Shown: positions 215 to 41,640 of the stretch, piece by piece
Position numbering within the stretch: the first letter of the stretch is position 1
How the letters are laid out: the number at the start of each line of letters is the position of its first letter
The notes under the pieces: model-generated
The model's input: only the letters and a program-made list of their open reading frames with translations
Databases searched by the model: none
Told to the model about the DNA's origin: nothing
Position numbers and translations under genes: made by a program
Assembly: GCF_003073045.1 (NCBI RefSeq)
Contig: NC_037598.1
Span: 24,923,822 to 24,987,821 of the forward strand
DNA from: Pomacea canaliculata
Taxonomy: Eukaryota; Mollusca; Gastropoda; Architaenioglossa; Ampullariidae
Reading direction: 5' to 3'
DNA: 64,000 bases

Positions 215-1486
215 CTCGGCACGTGCTGCCAGTGTAGCCAGGCTGGCAAGGGAGGATCCTGCAGTCTCCAGTGTAGCGGTCACAGTCACTGTTGTTGTAG
301 CATTTGCCACATGGATGATGACAGCTGTGTTCATAGAATCCACGGGTACACACTGTGGACATGATCATCATCATCATCATCATTGCTTTGTGCTTGAACT
401 TTTTACCTTTTAATTTATTCCTTTTCCTTTTTTCTTTCTACCATTTATGAACATTCTGTTGTGAGCTACATACCGCAAATATCAGTAGAAGGTATTGACG
501 GGAAAAAATAATAAATTGAGTTTTTACCCCAAATCTGGACTTCACAAACACTGAGGACGTGTTGGTATGAAGATGTTAAACTGCTGTTTGGTTTTTGAAG
601 TTTAACCAGCTGACCATAAAGTGTAGTTGTACACGACAAGGAGGTATTAAGACTTGTGGGTGTTCCCTTGATCCTCGTGCAATTTCGACCATCAACACTG
701 ACCGACACTCCATCAAGCCTGTGTAAGACTGAAATAAAGATATTCTGCTATACACATGGTCACACGACAAATTCGAAATAGATTTTATACTGTTAGCAAT
801 TTTTTTCACCGAATAAAGACAAAAACAGAAAGAAACAAAACATAATAAAAAGAACCAGCAAAAAAAACTATATTAAATGAAAAACACCAGATAGAAAAAA
901 AGGAAAAGATAGAAACGAATAAAATAGGTTTATTTTTGTTGACATTTCCTGTTATTACTTTTAAAATCGATGTGGCACACTTGCTGTATGGTTTTGCTGT
1001 GCCCAGTGTTCAAATATGGCGAAGTACAGATTTGTAAAGGATGCAATACATTCTTCAACAACACAGGACATCGTGTTCATCTTTACTGCCGTATCAATAA
1101 TTATCTAGAGCAAGGATCTTTTGAAAGAAACAAAAATCTTCAGAAATTAGTACAGAAAGAGACAAGTCATTTCGTCGACCATGGTTTGATGTGGGCTGAC
1201 ATCAAGCAGAGAAAGATTTTGTGGTGAAGCTTTCTTGTAATAGAACACAGTCAGTGCTGAATTATTTCCTTACAATTAGTTCTGCCAAAGATGGTGATGT
1301 TCAGCACGGGGTACACCTGTCCAAGATCCACCTGCCAGAAAGGCGCCATATCGGTCTCCATAGTGTCGATGCAGTTGTAGTTGTCAAAGTAACCGCTGGT
1401 GTTACCGTTAGCCGCATGCGATGGATTGTATGTGTACTCCGGGTGGAAGGAACTTTGCTTGTAAGTCTTTTTCAGTGCTACGTTTT
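215..1486 (-). CDS. L1: FTP-lectin/EGF gene, partial (three exons, continues off the left edge)
   Basis: Three exons read on the minus strand. 1486-1274 is the first half of an F5/8-like FTP (fucolectin) domain: NVALKKTYKQSSFHP at the start, W-x-V-D-L-G near the middle and ITIFGRT at the end. 728-528 is the second half, with conserved LSCTTTLYGQ and the closing VCEVQIWG. 352-215 is a MEGF-type EGF domain (HPCGKC, PCQPGYTG). All junctions are phase 1 and match the same exons of loci A, B and C. The EGF exon ends in a GC donor (gag|gcaagt). No signal-peptide exon was found upstream and no membrane or phosphatase exon is inside the window, so the anchor of this product is unknown. Closest relative here is locus C on the opposite strand. 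The reading frame is clean over all three exons. Confidence 0.8.
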
Positions 1487-3632: not shown

Positions 3633-4789
3633 TCATTAATTACAACAAAGCATTTCAAAAATATGTTTTATTATTTTCAGAGAAGTAGTCAATATCACAA
3701 ATAATTCTTATGCCTTGCAATTAATTAAAATAATTTTTGGTAAATACTAAAGTGCACAAAACAACATCTATATATACACATATATTGTCAATACAAACAA
3801 ATACACATAGTAATAAATACGTGATAAATAAATGTAATTCTGAACATACACAGAGATTTCAATATCACTGTGACTACAGCAGTCATGGAAGTAACGGAAA
3901 TATTTTAGAAGGAATCACGAGTGCTGATGATGGCTAAGTCTCTAATGAGTTTCCTCAGACCGAAAAAGACAGATAGTGTTCTCAGTGTTAGCTATGTGTC
4001 TGTCTACAGTGTAGCAGCAGTCGTCTGGGTGTCGGTGGCTTACACTCAGATTACAGCAGAGGTCGCTAGTCCAAACCTGGAAGACAGTGGACCATCCTCA
4101 GAGAAAATGCATGTTCCAAAGACAAGATTCCAACATATGACCTATGACCCCCAGTGTTTAAGATCGCCGACATCTCTATATTGTGCATCACATGACTGTC
4201 CTTACCCCGCCCCCGGATGCAATAAGCAATACAATGTTTGTCAGGAAATCAAGTTAAAAGAAGAACACAGTGTGAAGGAGTGATTATGGAAGGTCCACAT
4301 GCTGGTGGTTGTTATCTGCTGGCGTAGAGACTCTGTAAAGCTCGGAACCGATGAGCTACTTCATAGCAGAATCGGTATTCCTCCTGAAATAGAAAATAGA
4401 ATTACAACATGACGGTGGATATTTATATATATATAGTACACGGAAAGAAATCATCTTATATAATATTATAGAAATCTTCGCTTCAAGCTAGAAGCTTTTC
4501 GTAATCTTTTCCCGAATTTCAGTCGCTCAAATGATGAAACATTGGTAGACAACTGGACACAGCCCAGTCTGTGTAATTTAACTGACACGGAGGAACTGGC
4601 ATCACTTTATTGATGAGGAGATAATTACAAATGCAAGTTGCATATTCATGAAAATAAGACTATTGAAGACGTTCACTGCAATTTGTTCCACCCATAAATC
4701 CCAAGTCTTCTGAAGTAAGAATAACTGACTGAAAATATTCAAGAAATAATCGTAGGATTCCTTTGATTATTAACAGCCATGAAAATAAT
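3633..4789. repeat. Segmental duplication, copy 1 (3' end of phosphatase gene)
   Basis: About 1.15 kb that matches 16053-17170 almost base for base, with small indels. It carries a copy of the terminal coding exon of gene A plus its 3' flank and about 400 bp of upstream intron. The similarity stops on both sides, leaving the other phosphatase exons out. Confidence 0.9.
4312..4383 (-). pseudogene. Orphan terminal exon of a receptor tyrosine phosphatase
   Basis: Minus-strand 72-bp exon preceded by a good acceptor (ctatttcag). It encodes EEYRFCYEVAHRFRA and ends SLYASR plus stop, differing at only a few residues from the last exon of gene A (16796-16725). In PTP second domains this segment is the usual E-x-Y-x-F-x-Y helix at the C-terminus. 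No other phosphatase exon is found between here and 16 kb, so the exon is probably stranded by the segmental duplication rather than part of a working gene. It could be functional only if spliced to an unseen distant exon. Confidence 0.75.
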
Positions 4790-11899: not shown

Positions 11900-11955
11900 C
11901 AAATTGTGTCACTAATCGCTCATTTCTCAAATTGTGTCACTAATCGCTCATTTCT
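11900..11955. repeat. Tandem duplication of a 28-bp unit
   Basis: Two adjacent, essentially identical copies of the unit beginning caaattgtgtcactaatcgc, inside the intron before the degenerate third EGF exon of locus C. Confidence 0.9.
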
Positions 11956-16052: not shown

Positions 16053-17170
16053 TCATTAATTACGACAAAGCATTTCAAAAATATGTTTTATGATTTTCAG
16101 AGAAGTAGTGTATAATATAAGAAATAATTTTATGCCTTGCAATTAATTAAAATAATGTTGGTAAATACTAAAATGCACAAAACAACTTCTATATATACAC
16201 ATGTATTGTCAATACAAACAAATACACGTAGTAATAAATACATGATAAATAAATGTAATTCTGAACACAGCGATTTCAATATAACTGTGACTACCACTGT
16301 CATGGAAGTAACGGAAATATTTTAGAAGGAATTACGAGTGCTGATGATGGCTAAGTCCCTAATGAGTTTCCTCAGACCGACAAAGGCAGACAGTGTTCTC
16401 AGTGTTAGCTATGTGTCTGTCTACAGTGTAGCAGCAGTCGTCTGGGTGTCGGTGGCTTACACCCGGATTACACCAGAGGTCGTTAGTCCAAACCTGGAGG
16501 ACAGTGGACCATCCTCAGAGAAAATGCTTGTTCCAAAGACAAGATTCCAACATATGACATGACCCCCAGTGTTTAAGATCGCCGACATTTCTATATTGTC
16601 CATCGCATGACTGTCCTTACCCCGCCCCGATTCAATAAGCAATACAATGTTTGTCAGGAAATCAAGTTCAAAGAAGAACACAGTGTGAAGGAGTGATTAT
16701 GGAAGGTCCACATGTTTGTAGTTGTTATCTATTGGCGTAGAGACTCTGTGAAGCTCGGAACCGATGAGCTACTTCATAGCAGAATCGGTATTCTTCCTGA
16801 AATAGAAAATAGAATTACAACATGATGGTGGATATTAATATATATATAGTACACGGAAAGAAATCATCTTATATAATATTATAGAAATCTTTGCTTCAAG
16901 CTAGAAGCTTTTCGTAATCTTTTCCGGAATTTTAGTCGCTCAAATGATGATACATTGGTAGACAACTGGACACAGCTCAGTCTGTGTAATTTAACTGACA
17001 CGGAGGAACTGGCATCACTTTACTTAATTAGAGGATATAATTACAAATGCAAGTTGTATATTCATGAAAATAAGACTATTGAAATTCACTGCAGTTTGTT
17101 CCACCCATAAATCCCCAAGTCTTCTCAAGTAAGAATAATATTCCTTTGATTATTAGCAGCCACGAAAATA
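16053..17170. repeat. Segmental duplication, copy 2 (3' end of gene A)
   Basis: The partner of 3633-4789. In this copy the terminal exon is in its proper context, since the preceding phosphatase exon (17477-17342) lies just beyond the duplicated block. This is therefore probably the source and 3633-4789 the derived copy. Confidence 0.9.
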
Positions 17171-17233
17171 AGATTGCGAAAGAGTAATAGGTCCACGAAG
17201 ACTAATCCTTTAAATAAAATGTTTGTTGTTATT

Positions 17234-17267
<34 letters not shown>

Positions 17268-19904
17268 TGTCTTGTTTAGTGTCACATTCAATAAGTTCGA
17301 TGTTGACATGAGATCTCAACTACTGATGGACGTTCACCTACCAGCGACGTGACGACCTCAGGTCTGACCTCCTGCATTTCTCTGACCTTCATGAAGATGT
17401 CGGCTGTGAGGTCAGAAGTCATCTGAGTGATGATGTTACACAGTACGCAGAACAAACCACTCTTTGCAGCCCCGTCTCTGTTCACAAAAATAATATTTAA
17501 CTTTACTGTAAGCTGTTCAAACTATCAAGGAAGCAGTTTTTGACAAATGACCGTAGAGGTTACTACCATTACTATTACTAACAACAAGTAGAAGAAAAAA
17601 AGATAAAAAGATAAAAGAGAACAAAAATCAACAAATTCATCAAGAAAACATTAGCACACGTCCTTTGTAGAGTACTGCATGAAACTTTTTTTTGTTTTAT
17701 TTTGATGCTTAAAAGAAGGAATGAACACTGTGTGGCATCACTGACATGCACTGGATGAGGACGGGGCAGGACTTGGTGTCGAGGGCAAGTCCAAGCAGCA
17801 GCTGCAGCAGGTGTACGAGGTCCTCACAATAGCCGGGGACCTTGTCTCGCCAGTCAGTGAAGGACAACAGGTGGACCTCCCCGTGTTTGTGCTTTCGCTG
17901 TCAACACAACAGACAACAAACAACTGCATCACCAGAAACCAGTAAACAAATTCTTGAGAACTGGTGTGGCGAAAATATTCTTGTAGTGATTATAGTAAAC
18001 AACAAAAAATAGTTTTTTCGGCGACATTGTCAGCCACTTACAACAGGCGTCAATGTTAATTGAAGTCAGTCTTAGAAAAGTTTTACATGTCATTTTCTTG
18101 TTTGCTCGAAACAAGTTCTCCACATTTTAGATGAGACATATCAGAAAACATTCCAGACATTCTCTGGACATAAAATACAGACTTTGTGTGTTGCAAGTGT
18201 TACCTCCCACTTGAGACTGTAGCTCTGTAAGCTGACTCCCAACACATCTTTGTCAACTAGTGTCACAGTGTAATTCTCAGCCACCAACTTTTCTTCTTTT
18301 GTCGGCCAATAAGGACACAGATTCTGATGGACAAGGATGAAAATGTAAGAAAACAAACAATTCACACAGCAGTGCAGGGTTACATACAGAATAGAAAATG
18401 TCTGAGGTATAAGTGTTTGTTCCTAAGTTTATGCTAGTATACCAAACTATAAACTATGGTTGTTTTTTGTTCTAGTTTTGTTCTTCTTATGATGACATCA
18501 ATAATAATGAGGATGATTATGATCGTCATCATTATTTTTATGATGAAAACTTATTAGAGACCAAGAAAATAAGCAAATAAAAACAAAAAGAAGGTCGACC
18601 CTGCGTGCCTTCTGGTTAGAACGACTCTTGTGTACTAACGTATTATAAGCTATCTGCTTTTTCACCCAAAAATATCATACATAAAGCAAAGTAGCTAATA
18701 AACAAAAATTATTAAATAACTATTTTCCAATTCATATCGGCAATGGTATCAAAGGGTTATCATTCAGATAATAGCCTTTATAATTCTAGCTTGTGTACAC
18801 ATTTATAACTCAGTCTACCTTTTGTAAACAGTCAGCACTTCCCAGAGACACAATGTTTGTGACATCAAAGCTTTCCACCAACCGCCACAGGTCTTGGACG
18901 GTGTCTGGCAACGGCAGTTGTGTCAAGATGCTGCCTCGGGCATCAATCAGGGTCTGACAACAGAAGGTACAGGCTAATCAGCAATACAATTCATCAATTT
19001 AAAATCATTTAAATAACATTCAGCTTCATAGAGCATGCACATCCTATTATATTATTATTATTAATAATTCACATTATCAGAGTTGGCCATTCAGCTTTGT
19101 AGTCCTGTCTTTAAGTCTAAGACTAAAACTTAAAATCTTCCCAATATGAAAATAATATTTAACAACAATACAAATTTACTCAGTAGTTCAGTGCATTTTA
19201 TGTCCAAGCTGAAGAAGGGTAGCTTTCACACACAAACCACAATTTTAATGAGTATGGAAACCACATAAGCAGCAAGACTTATCCGAATTCAGCCTGTAAG
19301 CCATGAATGTCAGTCTGAGACATGACTGGAATCAGCCACAGACTAGCAAAGGTCAAAGGGAAATAAATAAATCGTGTGGGCCACCTCAATACCATGTTAT
19401 AACCACACACACACATTATATTCTAGGATTCATGCTAAATAGTGAGCAGCACTTACTGGAGCAAAAACAGCGGAAATGTAGTTGTTTCTCCCTCGAGCAT
19501 GCGCAGTGAGGTAAACCAAATGATTGTCAGCTGATAAAAGAAGAATAAATGGACATGTAAAAACTAGTTTTTGATGCAGATTTTAGTGCAGACAATGATA
19601 TTTGTGTTTCTTTCTCTGTGTGTTCGTTTGTTTGTTTGTTTGTGTTTAGCCCCTGGGCTAACGGTTACTGGGCTAACGGTTCACTACCAGGCATGGCTGT
19701 CTATTACGTCACAGTCTGTATATTTTTCTGTCAGTACCTTTCTCTCTCTCACTCACACACACACACACATCAAGCCATTGGATGATGAAAAGATTGCAAA
19801 AATATTTTCTTACGAGGAAGAGAATTCATATTTCGATTCTTGTCTCGGTTCTCGGATGAAGTAGAAATCGTGTAACGTGGTTGTTTCAGACGATCTCTCA
19901 TCAA
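16725..19904 (-). CDS. Gene A second phosphatase domain D2 exons (degenerate)
   Basis: Exons: 19904-19814 (RDKNRNMNSLP), 19530-19457 (GRNNYISAVFAP), 18953-18819 (ILTQLPLPDTVQDLWRLV), 18323-18204 (CPYWPTKEEK), 17897-17746 (LLSFTDWRDKVPG and up to LIQC), 17477-17342 (IDGAAKSGLF) and 16796-16725 (EEYRFCYEVAHRFRA, stop). The signature would be C-x5-R in an active enzyme; here Cys is followed by IDGAAK, so the phosphate-binding Arg is replaced by Lys and the preceding His by Gln. As in most receptor phosphatases, D2 is therefore likely a regulatory or docking module. The terminal exon is the one duplicated at 4312-4383. Confidence 0.88.
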
Positions 19905-22262
19905 CTGTAGATTCTATAATTAACAACAACAAATTATCTCTCTCTTTTCCACATGTTCAGAGATTCGCATACAAAGATACTCTTACTAAGAGGTTATTTA
20001 TTACTACTACTACTAACAATTACAATTACGACTAAAGCAATAGTAAATGAACATATAGTATCTGCATTTTTAGTCTACCTGTTCATACTACATTCAAATA
20101 AACATATATATATATATATAAACAAACCGACAAAACTAAAAAAGAAATAAGACAAAACTTGTACACCGAAGCAAATCCCGGGAACGAGAATGAGAAAGGA
20201 AGGAAGTTGGAATGAAAACAAATTTTTCTGAGACTACGATAAGAACAGACAAGAAAAGCATCATCAATATACATGTCATATTGAATACAGATCGAAGTGG
20301 ATAAAAACAAGATGAAAAAAGGCATTTGGTAGGTAAAGACGAGACAAACACCAGACAGCACACCACCTGAAACTCAGTGTCCACAATCTTGTCATCAGTT
20401 GTGGTGGTGGTGGACATTAAGGAGGCCATGTCAAAGTAGGCGACTTCTCGCCGAGTGTTGAGGCTGCTGTAGGCTTCCAACACCACCTCGTACACAAACG
20501 AGTACTGCTCCTACCAGGACATCATATTACTGGCTTCTTCAGCAAATGACTAGCGATTTTTAAAGATATTCTTACATATTTTTTCTTATTATTTATCTGA
20601 TTGAAACAATTGCAATTGTACCTAATTGGTGTGAACTGTTCAAGTGTCTCAACTCTTATTTATCGCATAACATTATTCGCAAGTGTTTTTATTGATTGAA
20701 GTATATAGCTATATTTTGAGTGTTTGTTGCATAAAATAAGCTGTAAGTGTCATTTTTTTCAATATTTGATTTATTTTTGCGGGACGAATACATGATAAAG
20801 AACAACAACGAAAAGGATGCCACTTGTCTTCCACAGAATAAAATCAGAGAAAAAGGCGAACCTTGTTTTGCACCATGTTGCATCGGTCGTCCCGCAGTCT
20901 CTTGACGACATCCAGAACATCGACAGTCCCATCCTCTGTCGCCTGGTCCATCACAATATCAATCGCTATGTAGGTACCCGTGCGTCCAACACCAGCACTA
21001 GAGGGGGGAACGGGAAAGTTGTAAAGAAACTGTCCAACAGCAGCACTAGATTAAGGGACAAACTTTGTTTTATTTTGAACACTGAGGAACCTAACACTTT
21101 AGCGGAGAATTCAGTTTTAGATTTTCATCTTTCCCACCAACTCTCTGGAACCTGGAATTTTTAGCAAACAGGCAACAGAGAGTTTGTGTTAAATGTCTTT
21201 TCTCAGATCCTATTGTCACCTGTACAGGCTCCCTTCATGGCCGCTGCTTGTCTCTACTCCTGTACATACTGTATATTAACAGTTGTAGAGGCACTACATA
21301 TAGGAGCTTTCTAGTAAAATGTGGTGATGACACTGCCTTGCTGTCTATTTGTATGATACTGAACATGATCATAGTGATGCTCTTCCTGACTTTGTTCACT
21401 GGTGTGACGAACACTTTCTTGTCTTCAATGCCTTAAAGACTAAGGAAATGATTTTCGATTTTTGGACGAAGAGGGCTTAGTCAGTCATCAGTATTATCGA
21501 TGATAATAACATTGAGGTATTAACCCTAAACCTAACCCTGACTCTTACAAATATCTAGGTACTATCTTCGATAACAAGCTTAAATGAGATGAGCATCCAT
21601 GAGCTAATAGCGCCTGTACACATCTGTCAGTCCTTCTCCTCTAATACAAGAATGCTACAAAATTTGTGAAAATTACAACAAATATTTAAAAACAAAGACA
21701 TGTTGTAAAGTGATAACAAGCGTTAAACTATAGTTGTTTTTTTTTTATTGGAAAACATAACGGGTAAACGCAGGGGAAGCAGATGTGCCATTTCGATAAT
21801 TATTTCCCTTGTTCCTCGCTTCTCTCCATCTGCACGTGTGTCTATTCTCCCTCTCTTTTAACTACTTTCTCTTGTTATGATCTTTATTACAGTAACAAAC
21901 TATAAAGAATGATTCGTTTAATATTAATAGAGTTTACCTTGATGTATCACTAAAACTCGTCTTTAATATAGAGGCAACTCTTCTTTATAATTATCTAGAC
22001 GTGGTTAACAGTATGCTGGCTGGTAAGGGAAATAATCGTGAAAAAACCTGACAGACGTCCATCAGTAATTTTAAAAGCTAGAGAGATTGTTTACAATCAA
22101 CATCAAGAGTCAAGCGCTGACAGGGAAATTAATTGCTTCTTTTCCATGGTAATTACACAAAACTTTCTTCTCTATTTAATTAACACACATGAAATAGTTT
22201 TAGTGTGGAGCTGTCTATGGTTACGATCAGACTGACAATACAGATTTGTGTTCACGCACACA

Positions 22263-22301
<39 letters not shown>

Positions 22302-25300
22302 CACACACAGAGTTAAACATAGAGAACTCGGTGTCTCCATTACCTGCAGTGAACAAGGGGAGGCGACAGTGTACTGGCAGAGTTACGGGACTTTGCAAAC
22401 TTGCAGAAGTCAGTGAGGGCGATGGTGGAGGGGATCTCGTGGTCCTTCCAGTCCACGTAGTGAAGCTGTTCCACCAGGCGAAAGTTCCTCACCTTTGAGA
22501 GAGCAAACAATTTGTTTTATGTCTGACGTAATTGGGAAAATAATAACAATAACAACAATAACAATAATAATAATTACAATAACAATAATAAAGCACATTT
22601 ATAGAGCTTAGTCGAATATTAAACAAGCTGTAATCGTTTTCCAAAGTAATGCAATCCATAAACTGTATTCATATTTATTAGTTTAAAAAGATTTTTTCCC
22701 AAGAATTTGCCGGTGTTTACATTTGTAAAATTTTTTTTTTAAATTCTCTACATTTTGTTCTCAAGTTCTAAAATCCAAACAAATGGACTTAAAGGTTTCA
22801 GTCTAGCATTCTAATCAGTTAATAAAACTGATTTTTTTCCAACATAACGTGTAAATTTTCAAATCTGTAATTGCTAATTACTTTGTGCTTTTTTTAAAAT
22901 GGTTTAATAACTGAAATCATAGAAGGACAACAGGGATTAATACTTACATTGACTGGCTGTACATGAAGAGTCCTTACGATGAAGTGCGCCCTCTTGTCCT
23001 CCTCAGCACACGTCACTTCCACCTGCCCGTAAACGTTCTTCTCTCCCTTTGCCGGCCAGTACTCAAAGCACTTGGACTGCACGACATACAGAGTGAGGTG
23101 GGCTGCATGGCATGTAGTCACATAGTTCATCTTCACAAGATATTATACACATTATACATAACTGAATGATCTAGGCAATGAAAAAGCTGCAGAAAAGAGC
23201 CGACGAAATAAAAATAGGAAAGAAGAAAAGAGAAACTACCTATTGTGCGAACAAAAGAAAGAAAAAAAAACCCAGAATGAAGTAAGAAATGAACAAACAC
23301 ATGAGTAATTAAATAAAACAGGAGGGAAGCACCGCATGGGATTTTTATGAATGTGATGATATCGTTGTTGTGAAGTGGATTACCTTCCCATTTTCAAGAG
23401 CGTTAGTCAACATGATTATCTGAGTTACGTTTTCCTGCCACACCATTCGCCAAAAGTCATCAACGGTGTTGTTTCTGGGTCCTGTAGACAATCAGTCAAT
23501 GATCTCGTCAGTCATTCAAGTTTATTTGATCCTAATTAAATAATCAATTAACAGATTACATTTTATTCATCCACTAGAATTTCTTTCTTTGATCGAAAAA
23601 ATGGGATAAAATATAAAGCGAGTGAAAGGAGATCTGAAAGAAGAAAACAAGATATACATATAGAGCTATTTGAGCCTGTCATAGTATACACAATACAGTT
23701 ACACATACCTTGGGCTGCAATGTAAGCTTTGTCTCGCTTGTATCCCTGGAGAAAAGACATTAAATTATATTATAATTTAGAATCCAACAACACGAGTAAA
23801 CAAGTATTAAACGTTTACTGGCCACAGGAAGCCTCCAACAATAAGTTTCTTCTTTAAAGTGAAGATGCCGAGCTAGATATTTGAAAAGACGATTGAAAGA
23901 GTTTCCCATTACTCTTGCTTTTCTTATTGCATTTAAAAAGTGATGCAGACAGTTACATTTTTTACTGTGTTTTGATGTCTCTGTAAGATGCTTTTGCAGC
24001 AAGTCTTTTAATTTCCATCTTATTGTTTTCGATTATTAGAACACTAGCATCTACAGCCAGCAACCGTCCAACCCTGCTTCAGGGTGGCACACGAGGTCAC
24101 GGCCTCTGTTCTACTGGTATCCAGACATCGTCACGATAAGTAGTAGATGATTGTTGCTGCTCCACCCTGTAGACCTCTCTACTACTGAACTCTCACTGAC
24201 TAGAAATGAAAACATTCAAACACTCAGTCTCACTGACAACACTCACGGTGATGAAGCTGGCGTTGATATAGTCCGAAGAGTTATCACCCTTTACCTTCTC
24301 CAGGACAACTCTGTTGAAGTCGTCTGTTGTATGGTGAAAATAACGTAACAATGTTAGTGGGTTTTTTTAAATACACCAAAAATAATTACATTGATAAACA
24401 TAGTGCATAGTACCAGATTTGTGAAGTTCTGCATAGTTTACTATTAATTCTGTTTACTTTAAAATAGCAATGTTTAGAGAAAAATTATTTACAATTTTTT
24501 GCACATTTTCTGAAAGATAACACGGAATATATTCCAAAAATTGTTCTTTCTTTCGAAATGAAAAGATTTTTTTAATTTTCATTTGTGAAAGGTACTTTTC
24601 TATGTCACCAATAAGTAACTAACTCACAAGGAAGAATAGTGTTAAACCGATTTTTGTAGTGATTTTCTTTCTGTGATCCGTTTTTGCAGTCATAAATTAA
24701 ACCAGAGGGCAGCTCCTGCCAAACAAATTTTTTCCATAATTATTTATTCTTTGATTTATTACAAATGTTAACATGAGTCCGTGCGTGCGTGCGTGCGTGC
24801 GTGCGTGTGTTCACCCAGGTAAACAAGAAAAATCCGGGCACTTGTCTGCATCCACAAATAACTTAGCCCTTGCATAATCTTGATATTTTCTTAAATACAT
24901 AGATTTCAAGAAATCAAAACCTGCCACGATTGACCACAAGAAACAAAAATAAATAAATAATAATAATTTATCGTAAATTTCAGCAAGAGATAACAGGAGG
25001 TTCAGAATAAATTGTCAATGTTCAAAAAGTTTTCTACGAGGTTCCTCTTACAAAAATCTATTTCCCTTTCTATTATTTTAGTTCTTAGAAAACAGTTTTA
25101 GGCTCTGTTACAGACAACAAGTGTATCAACTCGCATAACAACATTTCTTCCTGATTTTACTGAGAATTCGTCGTCAACGGAGCGCAGTTTCTTCTCGACC
25201 TCCATTTTGAACATGCGCAGTGACACGCCAGTAGTGGCGGCGTGCATCCGGGCATCTAGGTGTGATGTTCGTCCGCCTGCAGTGAGCAGAGCTTCCGTCC

Positions 25301-28300
25301 GAATGTTGACATAAACATCAGCAGCCCCGAGTGAGTGCGCAGTGCCGGCCCCTTGTCTCACTTCCGGCTGATGGTGCAGCTGTAGCGTAGCGGTCCTCGC
25401 TACCGTAGCGTATTCGTCTGAAATCAAAGGTAAAATCGAAAGTAAACATTCAGTGTGTAAATAGGCAAATACTAATACATACTTTGGTTAATGCAAATTT
25501 AAGCACAAAAAATATATTTAACATTTTCTTAAATCTTCAGCTACGACAACTATCCACGGACTATAGTTCTGATAATGAGGATGGAAATGACAACACTGAT
25601 GGCGACGATGATGACGCTGATGATGATAGGGACGATCATCTCACCATTGGAGACAGGTGGTGAGCACGCATGAGCGACCATGTTGTTGATGTAGTGGACA
25701 TCCGGTGTATGATTTTCATCAGCGAGGTGAGGAGGCGGACACGATCGCTGAAAACAGGTTTCCGTTGCAGCCAATATCTCCTAGAAAAATTATCAGTTAT
25801 AACAGATGGGCGATGACATGGTATTTTAATTATAGTAGACTGACATTAATCTACACGAACTGAAGCTCTAGTGGCTTGATTGATGCATGTATACACGTGT
25901 TAGGTAAGCACAAAGCATTTTTAAAATTCAGAGAAAGGTCATTGAAATGTGACCTCTCTACCTCTCACCTTTGGAATTGCATGTTATGTTCTTACGTCCA
26001 AAATACAGTGCATCGATTACATCTATGAGGCATTTGAAGTGCGAAATTTAAATAATAGTTGAGTTTTATTGCATTGTTTTATATTGTATTGTGTACTGTT
26101 TGGATTCCTGTTGAAATGGGTCAAAGGCCTTTTTAATACATTAATCATTAATAAATCTTTATCCAAACCACATTATAATCTACATTCCATCATAGTAGTA
26201 ACCATGACCAGCATTACCCGTCGTCATCAGAATTTTAAAAACTGGACAGAAAACAAGAGTTCACAGAGTGGAGAATCACAGAAGACTTACCTCACAATGA
26301 GAAAAATCACAACGGCCAGCAGAATGATGACAAAGATGATTCCTACAGCAACACCAGCGGCGCTTGTGCTTGTATCTACAAGTTCTGTGGAAAAAAGTTT
26401 TCAATGTATTTTGTGATAGTCTTCAAACCACAGAGGTTAAATTTAAAGTAAATTTTATATCAGAAAAATACATTATCAAGATTCATAACATTAATTACTG
26501 AAATTTTAATCTAGCACTAACTGTTATCTCAACACGTTGAAATAATTTGTCTGTAAATTTTGAGGGAGGAAAATGCCAAAAGATACTTAACTTGTATGGT
26601 AATGGAGGCAAATCTCGAAAAGCATCCTCTTACCCATGCACTTAGTTCCTTGGAAACCCTCCAGACAGCCGTTGCTACAAAAGCCGTTTTCGTGGTGACA
26701 GTCCTGCTGGTGACGACACCGTCCGCAGGTCTGGTTACACCCATCACCATGTGAGCCAAGTGGACATTCTGTAAACACGCCATAGATAGTTGTTGTTGTT
26801 TATTTTTAGTGTGAGCTTCTGTCTTTTTCTAACCACAGGACTTAATGTTTCTTGGACAGTCTACTATTTGTATTTTTTGAGCTACTACTCACGTTGGTCA
26901 CAAAGGTCACCTAGAAGTCCAGGTGGACATCCTTTGGCACATTTGCCAGTTTTCTTGTCACAGGCCTCATCGTCCTTACACCGACGGCAAGAGAGTTGAC
27001 AGTTAGCGCCATACTTGCCGTCTTCACATTCTTCAAAAAGATTCAGTTACTAAGAGAAATTCTAACTGATTTTGAGAAATGATGTCAATATTTAAAAGCA
27101 TTCACATTTTTATCATACTCATATATACTAATTTACAATGAGCACAGCAGATTGTTGTTATCATCTGGGTAATACAAAAGTATTTGAAGAACAAAATACT
27201 CGCCAAACACACCCTTTTCGCACTTATCGCCATTCCACCCTGTTTGACAGCCGTTCGGACATCTACCCGTCACCTTGTCACATGTGAAGTTGGCGCATTT
27301 TCCACAAGATTGAGAGCAATTCCAGCCATACGTCCATTCTTCACAAGCTTCACATAATATATAAAGTAAATATTTTTTTAATTTAATTACCTACAGCATC
27401 ACAAGGTTTTTTTGCTACATGTTTCTTTCCTCATGTCTTTGTGAAACGCCCATAATTTTATTTTAATCGATTTTGACAGATTTTAAATGAAAAGATTTTG
27501 CTCGTACATTCGGAGAGCTACTTCTGTCGGTTGTTTTTCTTTGAAAATTTTTTTTACGTTTTCGGTACTCAGGAACAAAATAAATTATCAGACATGTTCG
27601 TGTCAAACATACCCGTCTGGCACAAGTCGTCTGTCCACCCTGCTGCACAGCCAGTCGGACATCTACCCGTCACCTTGTCACAAGCCAAGGAGTTGGCACA
27701 CTGACCACACGACTGAGAACAGCTCCAGCCATACTTCCCATCCAAGCAACCTAAAGTACAAAACAGTCATTTGTAAATCCTAATTTTAATCGGGTGTTAC
27801 AAGGTAAAGTTTTTGATGTACTTTTCTTTACTTGTCTTTTTCCCTCATTCTCCCAGCTGAGTTTATTTTAAAACGACTTTCACATATTTCAGTCTGCTTG
27901 GCTTTACTAGTACAACCTGGGATTTAGCTTTGTTGGTTGTTGTTCACTGAGTTCTGTTTGTGAGAGCAAATGATAAGCCAGATGTCTAAGAAAAGCATTT
28001 GTGAAATTAAGTTACATGTTTCACACATGTGGCTAAAAAAAGGTCCTTTAATCCTTTAATCAGGGCATTTTTTTTTTAAATTTACATTGAAAGGACCAAG
28101 CTTTTACAAATAAAATCAACCCTTTTTAACTTTTGATCTTTCCCATTTTCCCATTTCCCATATCTCTTTCTATTTTTTTATGCATGGTTATTTTTTATGC
28201 AGTTCAGGGTCTAGCATTACTTCTATGATATCATTGCATGATGATTAACATTTTAAGCCTCCCAGACATTATCAGCAAACTGTGGTTGTCATTACTTTTG

Positions 28301-31037
28301 TGACATCCTTGTCCTTGCCATCCTGGGTGACAGCCTCTCGGACATCGTCCACTTGCTTTGTCACAAGTCTCACCCTCACAGTGACCACAGCTTTGATGAC
28401 AGTTAGCTCCGTACTTTCCGTCCTTGCAAACTGAAAATGTATTCTTATCTTCTTAATATTTTAAATTCATAATTTGAAAACTCCAATATATTGTCTGCAT
28501 GATACTTGAATGGTCCAGGCGCACTACATGCTAAACTATGAGAGTGCTTCGGCTAGAAACACTGCATAACATGCGAGTGGAAATAGGTAGGTAAGTTCGC
28601 AATTACAAATTAAATGTTCTGTACTTTGTTACGAAAATTCCTGTCGATTTTAGGAACAATATAATAGTGTAGAAAACTGACTTCTAGAGAACAAGAATGA
28701 TGTTATGTTATACTAGAGGAGGAAACACGTATGGTTATTAAAGTAAAGAAAAGAAAGTGTATACGTACCCCACACCTCAACCTCACACATGTTGAGGCTG
28801 ATATCGTTCCTATTTCTGCTGTCTCTCCTAATCTTGACTGTCCTGCCAGACAGCGCCGTGGTACAGGACAGGGTAAAAGGGTTGGTAGAGGGCATGTCTT
28901 TAATCGAGAAACACTGGTGGTTGTCTATGGTGACAGTTGTGTCCACCATTCTGCGTAAGACTGTGAAGGAATACAGTTGTAGGTCGTTGAAAGGTACAAA
29001 CATTAGACAAACACACATGTACACAAGTATTATGTTCCTTTACTTATATATAAAGATGACTTTAAACATCACAAACACTCAAATGCTCTCTTTACCTGAT
29101 AACTAAAAGAACTTTAAGCCAGTGATGTGTTAAGAAGATTAATCCAGCAATTACAAGTTTCTTCTCACTCGACTAGTGGCTAACCTTTGTGGTTCTTAGT
29201 GTTGAACAAAGACAAAAAAAGGAGTATTGAACACTAAATTAGAATAAAAGTAAGAAAGCACACAAACAATCCCACCCGACGTACACACACAAGCAGACCC
29301 ATCCACCCACCATACACACAAACACCCATACAAACTCCCCGTCCAAAAATAGAGACAAAGAAAGAAAGAATAAAGAAGAAAAAGTAAAAAGTGCAATTTT
29401 GATTCTGAGTTTCAAATCCGAGTAACTTGAATGGTGCCCACACTATAGCGGGTTGGGAGGTGGGCGAGGGAAAGAGGGGTTGGCGTAGGAGTTTAAGGAC
29501 GAGTCAGTAGTTGTCACCAAAAGCAGCCCTGTACTAATATTCAGGAGACTGACTCAAGAAAGAAGCGATAGTTAGCAGAGGTTGTGAGATAATTAGATAA
29601 CAATAAGGGGATTCCTTATAAGAAATCTACATGGTTTTTCTTTTATTGAAAATTTAATTGTTACAAACTGTATAATATACATGTCGCCATCTTGTGTTTC
29701 TAGTGCTGAGTAACACTTTAGTATTTGTGTAAAATATTGAAGAGTAACTTACAGCCAGGACGGCCATAGATGGTGATGTAAGCCACAGGGTACACGTGAC
29801 CAAGGTCTACTTCCCACGATGGATACTCGTCTCTGGGATTTTCAGATGTGTGGATACAGGTCATGAACTCGGTGATATTTCCACCCGGTGTCCTGCCATC
29901 CACCGCCGCAGACCCTGATGTAAATTTACTGTGAGTGGAGCTCTGCTTTGTTGCCTTGCTCAAAGCCATGTTCCCTGTAACAACGATCGAGTCAAGAGTT
30001 ACAATATGAGAGAAGAGGTGTGAGTGAACTAAACTGTAGCACTGGTAGCCATATTTACTTTTAGAGGCTTTCTTCTTTAAATCAACAAACATACATTATA
30101 AAAGATTTCTGTGCTCTAGTACACCTTAGCGGGTAATATAAATGGTGTTTACAATATTTTGTGAAATAAAATTGTTCTCACTAAACACAGTGTACAGTAG
30201 GTCCCTTGTGAAATGTAAGTACACACCAGTTATGATGTTATACAGCATCTCGAGTATTTACTAATGATGGTATCGATATGAAAGTGTTTATGTAGATAGA
30301 CAATAATAACACTAAACTTTTCCTTAGGATCAAAAGCACTCGCCTTAGCCTATAACAGGAAGTGGTCAATCGGATTAATAAGACAAAATGTCAAAGGATT
30401 TGTTTTACGGGGTGGGGGTGCTGGCCCCACGCCCAACCCTCCTCCTTTGTCAGCCGAGCTTGGGACCGTCCTTGGCGGAGGGCAGCCAGCCCTGTAAACA
30501 GATGCCACGTGCAGAGAAAGATCAGCGTGCCCGAGACGAGAAATGAACTCAGGGCAGCCAACCTTCACTGTATTGGTGACAGGCGCTAACAGCGCTAACC
30601 GTTGCCACCGGGCCGCTCAAGTGTTTATGTAGATAGACAATAATAACACTAAGCTTTTCCTTAGGATCAAAAACACTCGCCTTAGCCTATAAAAGGAAGT
30701 GGTCAATCGGATTAATAAGACAAAATGTTAAAGGCTGAGTCTCAAGGACTGTGACCACGAGAACATATGGATATAATAGTTAATAGACTGACAGAGCAAC
30801 TATTAAAACAGTTAAATACTAACATCATAAACTATATCAATATATATATATAAAGTATAATTCGCTTGCTTATTCTTTGCTGACTAAAGTCCTGAAAAAT
30901 AAATTGGCACTAACTTAAAGTAAGTAGATCTTTCTACTGACATCTATAATAAAAATACGAGGAAAACTTCACTTACTGACATCCTGGGCATGACAACAGA
31001 AAGCTGTTAACCACGTGACACACAGCTTGAGTAACAT
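16725..31037 (-). CDS. A: receptor-type tyrosine phosphatase with FTP lectin and EGF ectodomain
   Basis: A complete 26-exon minus-strand gene of about 1,090 codons. Order: signal peptide (MLLKLCVTWLTAFCCHAQ), two-exon FTP lectin domain, five MEGF-type EGF domains, one membrane helix, juxtamembrane region, active PTP domain D1, degenerate PTP domain D2, stop at 16725. It should sit in the plasma membrane, bind a ligand (possibly glycan) outside and remove phosphate from phosphotyrosine inside. Exon phases agree at every junction except one: the membrane exon (26384-26291) ends in phase 2, while the next exon (25780-25645) must be read from phase 0 to join the DEYATV exon. Exon lengths sum to 2 modulo 3 accordingly. 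A missed micro-exon or a one-base error would explain this. The front half is duplicated as locus B. Lectin-EGF phosphatases of this kind are known to be expanded in molluscs. Confidence 0.88.
17232..17266. repeat. (TTG)n microsatellite
   Basis: A run of about eleven TTG units in the last intron of gene A, next to the end of the segmental duplication. Confidence 0.9.
20367..24715 (-). CDS. Gene A catalytic phosphatase domain D1 exons
   Basis: Exons with matching phases: 24715-24628 (QKENHYKNRFNTILP, the KNRY motif), 24323-24247 (SDYINASFIT), 23745-23709 (GYKRDKAYIAAQG), 23481-23384 (TVDDFWRMVWQENV), 23076-22948 (KCFEYWPAKGE), 22492-22344 (VDWKDHEIPS and up to VHC), 20997-20862 (SAGVGRTGTYIAID) and 20510-20367 (EQYSFVYEVVLEAY). 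The signature HCSAGVGRTG, split by an intron after Cys, has the catalytic Cys and Arg. The WPD loop reads WKD, keeping the general-acid Asp. The Q-loop region reads VQNKEQY. All essential residues are present, so D1 should dephosphorylate phosphotyrosine. The 20862 donor (aag|gttcgc) is weak but the frame continues correctly. Confidence 0.9.
22256..22300. repeat. (CA)n microsatellite
   Basis: CA repeat, slightly interrupted at its start, about 44 bp downstream (in gene sense) of the exon carrying the catalytic Cys of D1. Confidence 0.9.
24782..24808. repeat. (GTGC)n microsatellite
   Basis: About six GTGC/GCGT units in a gene A intron. Confidence 0.85.
25161..26384 (-). CDS. Gene A membrane helix and juxtamembrane exons
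   Basis: 26384-26291 encodes ELVDTSTSAAG followed by a hydrophobic run (GIIFVIILLAVVIFLIV) and Arg, a type I membrane helix. 25780-25645 is a juxtamembrane exon. Read straight on from the helix it begins RRYWLQRKPVFSDR, an ideal stop-transfer sequence, but this frame ends in phase 0. Read in the frame needed by the next exon it contains ENHTPDVHYINN and SPPVSNG, joining DEYATV perfectly. 25417-25161 is a long juxtamembrane exon (ADVYVNIRTEALL, then FKMEVEKKLRSVDDEFS) leading into the phosphatase domain. Both readings of 25780-25645 look partly real, which suggests a frame-changing indel inside it. Confidence 0.75.
26634..31037 (-). CDS. Gene A ectodomain exons
   Basis: Exons: 31037-30977 signal peptide (phase 1 end). 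29974-29753 FTP first half (RNMALSKATKQSS, PSWEVDLGHVYPV, YITIYGRPG). 28960-28769 FTP second half (FTLSCTTALSGR, NMCEVEVWG). Five EGF exons: 28430-28296 (VCKDGKYGANC), 27750-27613 (GCLDGKYGWSC), 27347-27213 (ACEEWTYGWNC), 27030-26893 (ECEDGKYGANC) and 26768-26634 (ECPLGSHGDGC). Each EGF is a phase 1-1 cassette, so loss, gain or exchange of whole domains keeps the frame. The FTP fold is known from fucose-binding lectins, but I did not confirm the sugar-binding His/Arg set, so a lectin activity is inferred. Confidence 0.88.
30282..30734. repeat. Direct repeat of about 115 bp flanking a SINE
   Basis: The segment beginning aagtgtttatgtagatag at 30282 recurs at 30619 with a few substitutions, each copy about 115 bp. 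The corresponding place in locus B (about 40224-40330) has only one copy and no SINE. All are in the first intron, between the signal-peptide and FTP exons. Confidence 0.85.
30396..30618 (-). mobile_element. tRNA-derived SINE
   Basis: On the minus strand the element starts gcggcccggtggcaacggtt, a tRNA-like head with an A-box-like block, followed about 50 bp on by a B-box-like gagttcatttctcg. The body is G/C-rich and ends with a short tail near ttttgtttta-complement sequence at 30400. It lies inside the first intron of gene A. The tRNA relationship is from box spacing and sequence; the family name is not assigned. Confidence 0.65.
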
Positions 31038-31049
31038 TGTCTTTGTCAA

Positions 31050-31136
31050 CTTATACAAGTGATGACCACATGTAGACATCTACCTCTGTCCTGCTATACA
31101 AGTGATGACCACATATAGACATCTACCTCTGTCCAG
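31050..31136. repeat. 43-bp tandem repeat just upstream of gene A start (two copies)
   Basis: Two near-identical 43-bp units (tatacaagtgatgaccacat at the start) lie 13-100 bp upstream of the gene A start codon on the minus strand. Locus B has three units at the same place. The position makes it part of the 5' UTR or core promoter. Confidence 0.85.
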
Positions 31137-36300: not shown

Positions 36301-39300
36301 GGCTGGACACTTTAAAGACCGAATGATGATAATTGGGATAAATAATATTAAGGATAAGGACACTGTAGGAAAAACGGAGTAATTAAAAAATGAAAGAGGA
36401 AAATGTAAGCAAAACATCATGGACACCCAAAGCTCCAATAAATGTGATATTAGTTACACAGTATGGTGATGTCTGCGACACTGTGGTGTGATGTGACATT
36501 GATACACTGTTTACAACACTGACGTAATGTGACACTGACAGTCTACAACACTGACATGATGTGTACAACAGTAATGTGCTTTTAAAGACATAATGAACTG
36601 TCAGCCGCCCTCTCCATCATCAGTGGTAAAACTTCCTGTTTACTTGACACTCTTTTCTCCGGTCCTGCTGTGAAAGTCGAAACGTTTAAAAGATTTATAA
36701 ATAATTGTCAAACTTACCGTCTGGCACAAGTCGTCTGTCCACCCTGCTACACAGCCACTCGGACATGTACCCGTCACCTTGTCACAAGCCAAGGAGTTGG
36801 CACACTGACCACACGACTGAGAGCAGCTCCAACCATACTTCCCATCTTCACAAGCTTCACAGAATATTTAAAAGTAAATAATTTTACATTTAATTACCTA
36901 CAGCATCACAAGGTTTTTGTTACATATTTTTTCCTCCTGTCTTCGTGAAACTCACACAATTTTATTGTAATCGACTTTGACAGATTTTAAATTAAAAGAT
37001 CTTGCTCTGAAAGCTACTTCCGGTTGAAACGTGTTTTGAGTCCCTGGTAATTAGGAACAAAGTGAGTTATTAGAAATAATGATGTCATTGTCAAACTTAC
37101 CAGTTCGGCACAAGTCGTCTGTCCACCCTGTTTGACAGCCACGCGGACATCTACCCGTCACCTTGTCACAAGTGGAGTTGGCACACTGACCACACGACTG
37201 AGAACAGTTCAACCATACGTGCCATCCCTGCAACCTACAGTACACAACAGTTGTAGGTAAACTTTCTCACCTGCTGTTACAAGGTAGGAGTTATTACTAC
37301 ATCTCTCTTCTTTCTCGCCTTGTCTTTCTTACTCATCCCCTCAAAGACTCAACCGAGTTTTCTTTAACGATTTTACAGATTTTAGGTGGTTTGATATTAT
37401 TAGTCTATTCTGAGAGCTAGCTTTCGGTTGCTGTTTATTCAGTTGTTTTTGTGTGTTCCTGATACTCACAAACATCACAACTGCTCAGACAGTCGTAAGT
37501 CTAAAAAGATTTTAAAATTTAGTGTTAGTGACATATTTGATGTTGTGTTTGTGGTTAACAAAGCTCTATACTAACATCTCAGTGAAATAATTCAGACAAG
37601 TTTTTTTTTTTTTTCTTGTATTAATATATCTGTAATTGGAGCAAGGATTTTACTAATAGGATCAAAGCCATCTGTCGCTACTAACCTACCCCTTATGTTC
37701 TATCTTTCCCTCTCTCTCTTCCTTATTGTATAACCTTGGTCAATTAAGATTTATCCTTTGATATTTCTTTCTCTCATTCCTTCTTCAACTATTTTTATAA
37801 AAGTATAATTTTATTTTATGTTACGTTTCATGTAGTGATATAGTGTTATGTATCAGTATCCTACAGTTTTTTTTCTATTATCCCTTTACATATTTTAAAA
37901 CTGTTGTTGACTCATAGACATTATCAACAAATTGCTATTGTCATTACGTGTGTGACATTGTTGTCCTTGCCAGCCTGGGTCACAGCCTCTCGGACATCGT
38001 CCACTGTCTTTGTCACAAGTCTCACCCTCACAGTGACCACAGCTTTGATCACAGCTAGCACCGTACTTTCCGTCCTTGCAAACTGAAAATATATTATCTT
38101 CTTAACATCTTTAATTCATATCTTCAAAGCTCCATTATATCTTGTGCATGATACTTGAATCGTCCAGACACACTACATGCTAAACAATAAGAGTGTTTTG
38201 GTGAGACACACTGTGAGGGAATTTATCGTCTGTGGACTTAAAACACGCATTGGGATATAGGCAGGTGGGAAAATATTATAGCAGATGTTTTTCATGTGAC
38301 GAATTGATTTTATAATTTTCAGTTGATAATAATAATAATGAGTGAGAAAACAAATGCAGAACAAAAATCTTTAATTACCAAAAAAATCACAAAAAAGACA
38401 CTGGCGAAAAAAAATCTTATCCAACATATCAGAAATAGGTTTTGTGTAGTGTCTTTCTGCTAACATATAGACACATCATATTAAACATTGAATGCATATA
38501 ATTTAGTTAAAGATATCTATTTGCTTTATAAAATATCATTAAACAAACTATCTCGATCACAATTTCAAATTAAATATTCTGTATATCGTTCTGAAAATTC
38601 CTGTCGATTTGAAAACAACAGGTAAAATAGTGTAGAGACATGGGCAACAAGAATGGCGGTATGTTAGAGGAGCAAACACTTATTGTTATTATAGCAAAGT
38701 TAAGCAAAGTGTATACGTACCCCACACCTGAACTTCGCACATGTTGAGGCTGAAATCCTTCTTAACCCTGCTGTGTCTCTCTATCCTGACTATCCTGCCA
38801 GACAGCGCCGTGGTACACAACACGTTAAAACGGTTGGTAGAGGGAGCTTTTTGGATGGAGAAGCACGTGATACTGTCTATGATGACAGTTGTGTCCACCA
38901 TTCTGTGTAAGACTGTGAAGGAATACAATTGTAAGTCATTGAAAGATACAAACATTAGACAAACACTAATGTACACTAGCATAGCGTTCCTTTATTTATA
39001 TGTGTATAATAATATCTACAAACATCACAAACACTCACATTCTGTCTCTGTACCTGCTAACTAAATCAACTTTAAACAAATGTGTAAAGAAGTGTTGTTC
39101 CAGCAACCACAAGTTTTCTGTCTTATGTCTTGCGGCTAAACTTCATGGTGCTTAGTGTATTGGACAAACACAAAAATGTAAATTAAGACTATTGAGGACG
39201 GAAATAAATAAAAAAGAGAGAAAGCATGCAAAGATTGTAACACACATGCCTTTACAGACAAAGAAAGAAAGAAAAGAAAGAAAGAAAGAAAGAAGGAAAG

Positions 39301-40657
39301 AAAGAAAGAAGGAAAGAAGGAAAGAAAGAAAGAAAGAAAGAAAGAAAATAAAAAGTGCTATTTTGCTAGTTTTATATCTTGATAACTTGAATGGCGCCCA
39401 CACCATAGCGAGTTGGACTGTTGGTGGGGATGTTAGACGACGAGCCAGTGGTTATCACCCAAAGCAGCCCTGTAGTATACTATATTCAGGAGATTCCCTC
39501 AAGAAAGAAGCGATAGTCAGCAGCGGTCGTGAGATAAATAGATAACAAGAGGATACTTTATTAGAAAGCTGCATAGATTTTCTTTTATTGAAACATTTTA
39601 ATTGTTACAAACTGTAAAATATACATGTCGCCTTCTTGTGTTTCTTGTGCTGAGCAACACTTTAGTATTTGTGTGTAAAATATTGAAGACTAACTTACAG
39701 CCGGGACGACCATAGATGGTGATGTAAGCCACAGGGTACACGTGACCAAGGTCTACTTCCCACGATGGAAACTCGTCTCTGGGATTTTCAGATGTGTGGA
39801 TGCAGGTCATGAACTGGGTGACATCTCCACCCGGTGTCCTGCCATCCACCGCTGTAGACCCTGAGGTAAAGGCACGATAATAGGTGCTCTGACTTGTTGT
39901 CTTGTTCAGGGCCACGTTCACTGTAAACACGATCCAGTCAAGAGTAAGAATATTAGATAATAATTGTGAATGAACTGAATTGTAACAATGATGTATTAAT
40001 TAGAATTCATATTTAGAAGCATTCTTATCTAAGGAATCAATAAAAATTATAAACCAATTTCTTGGCTTTAAAACACTGGAGAGGGGAAATATAAATCACG
40101 TTGCAACATTTTGTAAAATAAACTTGTTATCACTAAACACAGAGTACAGTCCCTCGTGAAATGTAAGTAGACTCCAGTGTTATACAGTATATCGAGTATT
40201 TACTAATGATGGTATTGATATCAAGTGTTTATGTAGATAGACAATAATAACACCAAGCTTTTCCTTAGGATCAAAATCACTCGCCTTAGTCTATAAAAGG
40301 AAGTGGTCAATCGGATTAATAAGACAAGATGTCTACTGACAATGTTAAAGGCTGAGTCTCAAGGACAGTGATCACGAGAACATATGGAATTAATAATTAA
40401 TAGACTTCCAGAACAACTTTAAAACAGTCATGTATCAAAGTACAACGAAAAGCTAAAAAAAGTCTTAAATTGTTATTGACATCATCATAAATAAACAATT
40501 CACATATTAACTTAAAACATATTTAAGCTGATTTAAAGTAAGTAAATCTTTCTACTGACATATCAACAACAAAAAAACCAAGAAAACTTCACTCACCGGC
40601 ATTTTGAGCATGACAGCAGAAAGCTGTTAACCACATGACACACAGCTTGAGTAACAT
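33311..40657 (-). CDS. B: FTP-lectin/EGF paralogue of A without phosphatase domains
   Basis: Exons: 40657-40597 signal peptide (nearly identical to A), 39920-39699 FTP first half (VNVALNKTTSQST, DLGHVYPVAY), 38912-38721 FTP second half (LCTTALSGR, NMCEVQVWG), EGF exons 38082-37948 (VCKDGKYGASC), 37234-37101 and 36854-36718 (ACEDGKYGWSC). The second EGF exon lacks one base after TYG, which creates a stop in the expected frame, and the third EGF exon ends one base early at its donor. A candidate last exon, 33549-33311, has a good acceptor and encodes a short stem, a hydrophobic segment (MISGTVFVYTICTSYLVIYI), a basic tail (KMSTKKSFSSRK) and a stop. If used, B would be a membrane-anchored receptor with no enzyme. 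The anchor exon is not homologous to that of A and is the weakest part of the model. Confidence 0.6.
39259..39347. repeat. (GAAA)n / GAAGG microsatellite
   Basis: Purine-rich tract of GAAA units with interspersed GGAA, in the intron between the FTP exons of locus B. It is absent at the equivalent point of A, where only a short purine run is seen. Confidence 0.92.
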
Positions 40658-40671
40658 TGTCTTTGTCTGCT

Positions 40672-40795
40672 TATACAAGTGTTGACCACATGTAGACATC
40701 TACCTCTGTCCTGCTATACAAGTGATGACCACATGTAGACATCTACCTCTGTCCTGCTATACAAGTGATGACATGTAGACATCTAACTCTGTCCT
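40672..40795. repeat. 43-bp tandem repeat upstream of gene B start (three copies)
   Basis: Same unit as in front of gene A, here in three copies, the third with a small deletion. Copy number therefore changed after the A/B duplication. Confidence 0.85.
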
Positions 40796-41640
40796 GTCTT
40801 TGCAGCCAAACAACTTCTCGATGGCGGTGCTAGCATCAAGTACACTTTGTGTTACTGTCAGCAGGCACTGACAATGATTCTTTACTGACAGCAACAGTCC
40901 ACAATTCACTTCTCTGTCAGTAAATTTTCGAAGACATCGAAGGACGATGTTTGATATTATCAGCAGGAAGTAGTTAACTGCGGCTGGAGCAATGCGAGCT
41001 TTGTTTCTCAATGAGTAGACACTAAGCAGGAAATCATCTTCCTCTCTTCCATCACTCTTTTCTGTATCTATGTCGATTCTTTTGTCTTTAAATAAACCAT
41101 CCTGATTTTTAAGTTCCTTTTGATAATCTTTACTGCCATCATGGAGTTCCACATATCCCCCTCAAAGTTTAACATCTTCCTGCGCCACTACAATATTTCA
41201 TGGTAACATAGAAATACGAGTGTTTATTTGAATTTTAAAATGAAATGTAGTGTTATGACCATAATGAAAATCTTTTCTAGTCCTGCACTGGGAAGACAGC
41301 AAAAGCCAGACGGTGCATTGATACCATGTGACAAAGGTGTGCGCACACCCGACATAAAACTCATCTAGAGGTCAGTGGCGATGATGTGTCAGTGAGTTGT
41401 AGTCTCACAGTGTGTAGTAGATGATGATGTGTCAGTGAGCTGTAGTCACACACAGTGTGTAGTAGATGATGATGTGTCAGTGAGCTGTAGTCTCACACAG
41501 TATGTAGACTGTAGAGCATCGCTGCTCGTATCCCAGACTCTCGGAACTCAAGCGATTAGAACTCGGTGCCTTCATCCTGCTCAGCTTGTCCTTCACAGTC
41601 TCCTTTGTCGATAAGAGCACTGAACACAGTTAAGTCCACA
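40757..41640 (-). pseudogene. Unrecognised protein-coding remnant, copy upstream of B
   Basis: Homologue of 31094-31735. A 131-codon minus-strand frame (41152-40757) starts MELHDGSKDYQKELKNQDG, continues DKRIDIDTEKSDGREEDD and ends with the conserved NKARIAPAAVNYFLL to LFGCKDRTELDVYM part. Further upstream the SALIDKGDCEG and SLEF motifs also match the A copy, with a stop at the same point. About 95 C-terminal residues are well conserved between copies. I cannot name the family; no membrane segment or catalytic motif is evident. Confidence 0.5.
41380..41506. repeat. Tandem repeat, about 44-bp unit, three copies
   Basis: Three successive copies of a unit containing gatgatgtgtcagtgagctg followed by tagtctcacacagtgtgtag, inside the degraded upstream part of the unknown remnant. 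Confidence 0.9.

Follow-up and report, generated by a model that had tools for sequence, protein, structure and literature searches.

Does a lectin-type ectodomain belong to the same gene as a pair of tyrosine phosphatase domains, and is that gene intact? The question is raised by a minus-strand locus (16725..31037) of the gastropod Pomacea canaliculata, located in a 64,000-nucleotide stretch of contig NC_037598.1 (assembly GCF_003073045.1) that we call the window (C9:24923822-24987821, where C9 denotes this contig of a genome of 440,159,624 bases in 24 contigs). Here we report the reconstruction of this locus, which we regard, at a probability of roughly 0.78, as a gastropod receptor protein tyrosine phosphatase (RPTP) of the class that carries MEGF and galactose-binding domains, a member of a tandem array, with an ectodomain that would bind a ligand, a first protein tyrosine phosphatase (PTP) domain, D1, predicted to be catalytic and a second, D2, predicted to be dead. 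Its surroundings were examined in a 264-kb stretch (the window and 200 kb around it).

The gene model was built by six-frame reading, splice-site listing and exon joining. An earlier note, made from the sequence alone, had placed a chain of 26 exons, running from signal peptide to stop, at 16725..31037; its start (an ATG at 31037), its end (a stop at 16725) and its exon count were reproduced. All 25 introns are bounded by GT/AG, and once joined the exons read through in a single open frame, which gives 1094 aa in model A and 1079 aa in model B. The 25 exons other than exon 10 contain zero stops and zero frameshifts, and for model A the product of the per-fragment open-frame chances is 2.1e-23 (random placements in the window, in the needed frames). 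The domain order is signal peptide, split FTP (F-type lectin-like) domain, five eight-cysteine EGF cassettes, one transmembrane (TM) helix, juxtamembrane region, D1 and D2; joined exons, Pfam and PDB matches thus bear out the order, the single membrane helix and the degenerate D2 that had been proposed. The hydropathy scan that found one TM helix covered the protein up to, not including, the last part of D2.

The ectodomain begins in exon 1 (30977..31037), which holds the ATG and a signal peptide, MLLKLCVTWLTAFCCHAQDV, assigned by inspection only, and ends at the donor TCA/gtaagt in phase 1; a 116-bp direct repeat lies in intron 1 (30282-30397 and 30619-30734, 97% identical). The two halves of the FTP domain are encoded by exons 2 (29753..29974) and 3 (28769..28960), assigned by exon joining, Pfam and PDB sequence matches. 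Pfam F5_F8_type_C_2 has a cut-off of 27.8 bits, which the whole protein missed (23.5 bits, 9e-5) and the isolated domain just exceeded (28.0 bits); F5_F8_type_C stayed under its own cut-off with both. Among PDB sequences, the FTP head matched FBP32 (7.2e-10), a fucolectin-related protein (1.5e-5) and the eel lectin (5.1e-4). Cassettes 1 to 5 occupy exons 4 (28296..28430), 5 (27613..27750), 6 (27213..27347), 7 (26893..27030) and 8 (26634..26768). They are read as EGF because each has eight cysteines and symmetric 1-1 phases, and because the best PDB match of this part is Tie2 (about 2e-8). Pfam yielded no EGF model at a threshold of 0.1, and NCBIfam, a prokaryote library, gave nothing for the ectodomain at 0.01. 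Of the domain-database matches that had been anticipated, the two Y_phosphatase stretches and the F5/8-type matches were thus obtained and the Pfam EGF match was not.

The membrane-spanning part comprises exon 9 (TM helix, 26291..26384) and the two juxtamembrane exons 10 (25645..25780) and 11 (25161..25417, with the tyrosine motifs DEYATV and DVYVNI). D1 follows in exons 12-19 (20367..24715: 24715-24628, 24323-24247, 23745-23709, 23481-23384, 23076-22948, 22492-22344, 20997-20862 and 20510-20367) and D2 in exons 20-26 (16725..19913: 19913-19814, 19530-19457, 18953-18819, 18323-18204, 17897-17746, 17477-17342 and 16796-16725, with TAA), both assigned by exon joining, Pfam and PDB. Exon 21 had also been sought near 19342-19280, a position rejected for want of an in-phase donor, and an exon 11 end at 25157 with an exon 25 start at 17475 put stops into the model, so that 25161 and 17477 were adopted. 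Pfam Y_phosphatase matches the whole protein at 2.1e-120 in two stretches; the closest PDB sequences are RPTP-alpha (1.1e-119) and other tandem RPTPs including epsilon, with both D1 and D2 aligned. The catalytic roles of the P-loop, WPD and KNRY residues are well established. In D1 the P-loop HCSAGVGRTG is intact (residue 737 of model A) and carries the HCX5R signature, with the Cys at the end of exon 17 and the following Ser codon split across 22344/20997, and both glutamines of MVQNKEQ are present. D2 is degenerate: its motifs read WRD, KNRN and QCIDGAAKSG, the last with Lys where the P-loop has Arg.

The gene (W) belongs to a group of five RPTP genes that all lie on one strand in a span of 95 kb; W and its paralogs A, B, C and D share exon order and strand, from FTP through EGF and TM to PTP exons. 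A sixth member is fragmentary: its FTP part and three EGF exons lie at C9:24879210-24877059, and a single D2 fragment lies at 24874110. With tblastn at 0.01 in the 264-kb stretch, signal-peptide exons matched only in W and its partial copy, and queries D1_8, D2_1, D2_2 and D2_7 had no match in B, C or D. The "cluster of paralogous ectodomains" of the earlier note is right as to paralogous surroundings, which are really tandem RPTP genes together with partial and decayed copies.

Several findings weigh against the reading of W as an intact receptor with a ligand-binding head and a catalytic D1. The WPD motif of D1 is WKD (in 22492-22344), with Asp kept and Pro lost, which may or may not affect catalysis; KNRY is KNRF, with the aromatic residue kept. 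D1 had been called active, and the P-loop agrees with this; given the two altered motifs, its activity is a plausible prediction. The canonical F-type fucose motif is H-X26-R-X-D-X4-R/K. In the FTP head the spacing from His to Arg is 29 and RPG stands in place of RxD, even as its His, Arg and Arg align with domain 2 of FBP32. "Lectin" thus holds for the fold, by homology, and glycan binding is only putative. Of the 16 antistasin (PF02822) matches in the genome, taken at E up to 0.001, none falls on C9, unlike the SudRes1 locus of Biomphalaria sudanica considered below. Finally, the splice phases conserved among the paralogs put exon 10 of W one base out of frame.

This frame problem is confined to one junction. 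In all four paralogs the TM exon, translated in the frame that yields a helix, has a phase-2 end, and exon 11 of W, B, C and D was judged by eye to start in phase 1. The best donor of the TM exon in W is likewise in phase 2 (26291, GAG/gtaagt) and is strong: a fraction of 0.001 of the 980 GTs in the gene score as high or higher. An exon 10 that enters in phase 2 and leaves in phase 1 is found in B (125 nt) and D (137 nt), and those of W (136 nt, 1 mod 3) and C (130 nt) are both one base off. These phases are what a recent pseudogene would display, in which the juxtamembrane exon has shifted frame by one base, truncating the receptor directly behind the membrane and leaving at best a phosphatase-less membrane lectin; decaying neighbours (the upstream 5' copy, the frameshifted paralog A and the plus-strand copy, see below) point the same way. 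We nevertheless consider this unlikely. The other 25 exons carry no stop or frameshift, a one-base assembly error would look alike, and paralog C is equally off by one, which means either that alternative junctions may be used or that W and C are both broken. The paralog phases by themselves allow both a defective gene and an assembly error.

Three alternative chains through the juxtamembrane exon are phase-consistent, and the exon chain is to that extent not unique. Phase is restored by the alternative donor 26296 of exon 9 (phase 0; model A), by the alternative acceptor 25367 of exon 11 (model B) or by the weak internal donor 25668 of exon 10. The scores at the two differing sites favour model A over model B (12.6 vs 6.6), and its donor 26296 (5.4) is unremarkable next to a leave-one-out median of 6.2. 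Codon usage in exon 10 mildly favours the frame entered in phase 0 (log-likelihood ratio 5.8 vs 0.9), contrary to the paralogs, whose phase favours donor 26291. A brute-force search turned up candidate hidden exons of three kinds: a single one ahead of exon 10 (16 nt, score 5.1), five that fall between exons 10 and 11 (scoring up to 7.1) and seven single exons with phases 2-in/1-out (the best 25780-25668, at 9.6, with a weak donor). None of them is compelling. As tblastn queries, exons 10 and 11 gave only self-matches in the 264 kb at 0.01, and they were therefore compared with the paralogs by position, phase and eye. The uncertainty of frame leaves the ectodomain and the PTP domains untouched.

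The same junction, the only uncertain one, lies between the two halves of the gene, which is what would be expected if the locus held two genes, one for an FTP/EGF membrane protein that ends at about 26.3 kb and another, starting at 25.4 kb, for a PTP that is cytosolic or has a different head, and FTP-EGF stretches in which no PTP exon was found do lie nearby. The probability of two such genes is very low, however, since the FTP, EGF, TM and PTP exons of all four paralogs follow one another as they do in W and on its strand, and the tail of exon 11, whose donor is weak (TCA/gtaaaa), resembles the PTP lead-in of the paralogs. A fusion of this kind is also described for Biomphalaria in the available portion of a published report (PMC12297450).

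Taking W as one receptor gene, three members of its array differ from other loci in the P-loop of D1. The Arg position holds Leu in B, C and D (AGVGL/AGIGL) and Arg in W and A; the Leu-bearing loci lie to the left of the window (C9:24885218-24885427, 24902940-24903101 and 24918600-24918761). B, C and D retain the HC of the nucleophile. At the WPD position, B and C have FTD, with Asp kept, D has FTE, W has WKD and A has WLD. The comparison drew on a genome profile search with PF00102 (157 exon matches, the best 150 of 306 candidates being scored), from whose listed matches 55 loci outside the array (51 and 4 added) and 5 within it were picked by hand. The motif AG.G..G was found in 39/51 and 2/4 of the outside loci and in 5/5 array genes, and Arg is kept in all 41 outside loci that have it; among the 14 without it, two (L080 and L082) read HC.xGxGR by eye.

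The ratios of nonsynonymous to synonymous substitution (dN/dS) were estimated by the Nei-Gojobori method from small samples, without confidence intervals. For four D1 exons (D1_2, D1_5, D1_6, D1_7) they were 0.42 for B-C (dS 0.14), 0.23 for B-D (dS 0.46) and 0.24 for C-D (dS 0.36), and for three D2 exons 0.40, 0.56 and 0.42 in the pairs among B, C and D. The D1 values are consistent with constraint on the D1 domains of B, C and D after a common loss of Arg. The only ectodomain exon compared, FTPa, gave 1.09 for B-C (dS 0.11) and 0.25 and 0.20 for the other two pairs, and hence no consistent sign of positive selection. The summed ectodomain dN/dS of W against its upstream copy was 0.61, the copy itself being in decay.

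From this we tentatively suggest, as a possibility that we rate below even odds, that the array sets catalytic and non-catalytic lectin-headed receptors side by side, that selection maintains the Leu-bearing D1 domains, and that these pseudophosphatases hold substrates or antagonise the catalytic member. If so, the array would be a phosphatase analogue of the paired activating and inhibitory immune receptors. A limited literature search for molluscan receptor pseudophosphatases found no report, and no such molluscan receptor is named in the available portions of PMC11699755 and PMC8861042.

The distribution of FTP domains in the genome is concentrated on the same contig. An FTP query gave 59 matches (the best 150 of 161 candidates being scored), 57 of them on C9, near 7.4-7.55, 8.7-8.8, 12.6-13.5 and 24.87-25.05 Mb; a single match lies at 10.5 Mb. 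These FTP arrays coincide in part with PTP matches. For 12 of the 27 P-loop matches on C9, an FTP match of the same strand lies 4-20 kb to the 5' side; the 3' control gave 10/27 and the opposite strand 3/27. FTP and PTP exons therefore interleave on one strand, and with such a 3' control their pairing by distance is not shown. The interval C9:8707228-8780350 holds FTP matches with no PTP among the matches listed, and possibly represents lectin receptors without a phosphatase.

Partial copies surround the gene. A duplicate of its 5' half, with signal peptide, FTP domain and three EGF cassettes (36699..41124, minus strand), has a stop or frameshift in its second EGF exon, and no TM or PTP exon was found after it. 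Its FTP acceptor AG is intact, and its last donor is in phase 0, for which reason it is not supported as an alternative ectodomain of W. In the gene (31052-31134) as in this copy (40667-40796), a 43-bp tandem repeat immediately precedes the exon for the signal peptide. An orphan duplicate of the last exon and its 3' flank (3633..4788, minus strand) is 93% identical at the nucleotide level, and no other PTP exons were found near it. The next array gene, paralog D, begins at 1484; its FTP exons and the first of its EGF exons lie at 219..1484 (minus strand), and its PTP exons continue to the left of the window (C9:24921300-24914930). An inverted FTP/EGF copy on the plus strand (8390-12553) has in-frame stops in one EGF exon, and its EGF part resembles that of paralog C. 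In paralog A two exons are frameshifted, the first FTP exon and the one whose final residue is the Cys. Elsewhere in the window, twelve EGF exons on the minus strand (56116-63507; 16 with those beyond the window edge) belong to a MEGF-type gene; FTP exons lie just upstream of it (C9:24990696-24989805), and no PTP exon was found nearby. A plus-strand open frame at 13817-14137 resembles, by eye, a reverse-transcriptase fragment.

For the receptor itself, the sequence shows the exon chain, the order of the domains, the P-loop and membership of the array. We infer that the gene is expressed, and the class of its ligand and the catalysis by D1 are likewise predictions; an immune role may be proposed by analogy with SudRes1. 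Most likely, the FTP head and the EGF stalk would bind to a ligand displayed by a microbe, a parasite or another cell, and this contact might then alter the clustering or accessibility of the membrane-proximal D1, which would dephosphorylate tyrosines close to the membrane, with D2 acting as a catalytically dead regulatory or substrate-binding domain. The juxtamembrane motifs EYATV and VYVNI may be SH2 docking sites, as judged by motif class, EYATV being confined to chains with acceptor 25417. The array matters here because three of its five D1 domains lack the catalytic Arg and yet seem constrained: if lectin-headed RPTPs are general recognition receptors of gastropods, it allows one to ask whether catalysis or scaffolding is the signal.

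Several known systems share parts of this architecture. The tandem D1-D2 is that of the vertebrate RPTP-alpha and RPTP-epsilon (PTPRA, PTPRE), the best PDB sequence match, whose D1 has SWPD and KNRY in the aligned structures where the window gene has WKD and KNRF. Their ectodomain is short, glycosylated and unrelated to the one described here, and we know of no vertebrate RPTP with this FTP/EGF ectodomain. F-type lectins (eel agglutinin, 1k12; FBP32, 3cqo) match over most of the FTP domain, and the window gene differs from them by RPG for RxD in the sugar-binding motif and by being a membrane-bound fusion. Tie2-type EGF ectodomains have the same eight-cysteine CxDGxYGxxC cassettes with a different cytoplasmic part; the cassettes are also like those of Draper/MEGF10-type ectodomains, and the Pfam search of the window protein gave no match to the EMI model. 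Among other published sources, available in part, PTPRK appears among gene families in one figure legend (PMC7895826), and RPTP transcripts are reported from oyster hemocytes (PMC13070813).

The closest system is SudRes1 of Biomphalaria sudanica, which association mapping has associated with schistosome resistance (PMC12297450; Nat Commun 2025). As described in the portion of that report available to us, it contains three RPTPs in which MEGF and galactose-binding domains lie outside the cell, joined to one TM helix and tandem PTP domains, and the species has 14 further RPTP genes of this kind, 13 of them near SudRes1, in which domains are sometimes lost. The window gene, likened here to that published description, agrees in galactose-binding domain, MEGF part, single TM helix, tandem PTP domains and clustered paralogs with structural variation. 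It differs in that SudRes1 has an adjacent antistasin gene whereas C9 has no antistasin match, and the available text on SudRes1 does not mention a loss of catalytic residues such as that of B, C and D. Because the architecture has been published for Biomphalaria (PMC12297450), it is not new, and the window gene is a further member: on our reading, the receptor class tied to schistosome resistance in Biomphalaria is now seen in a second gastropod lineage.

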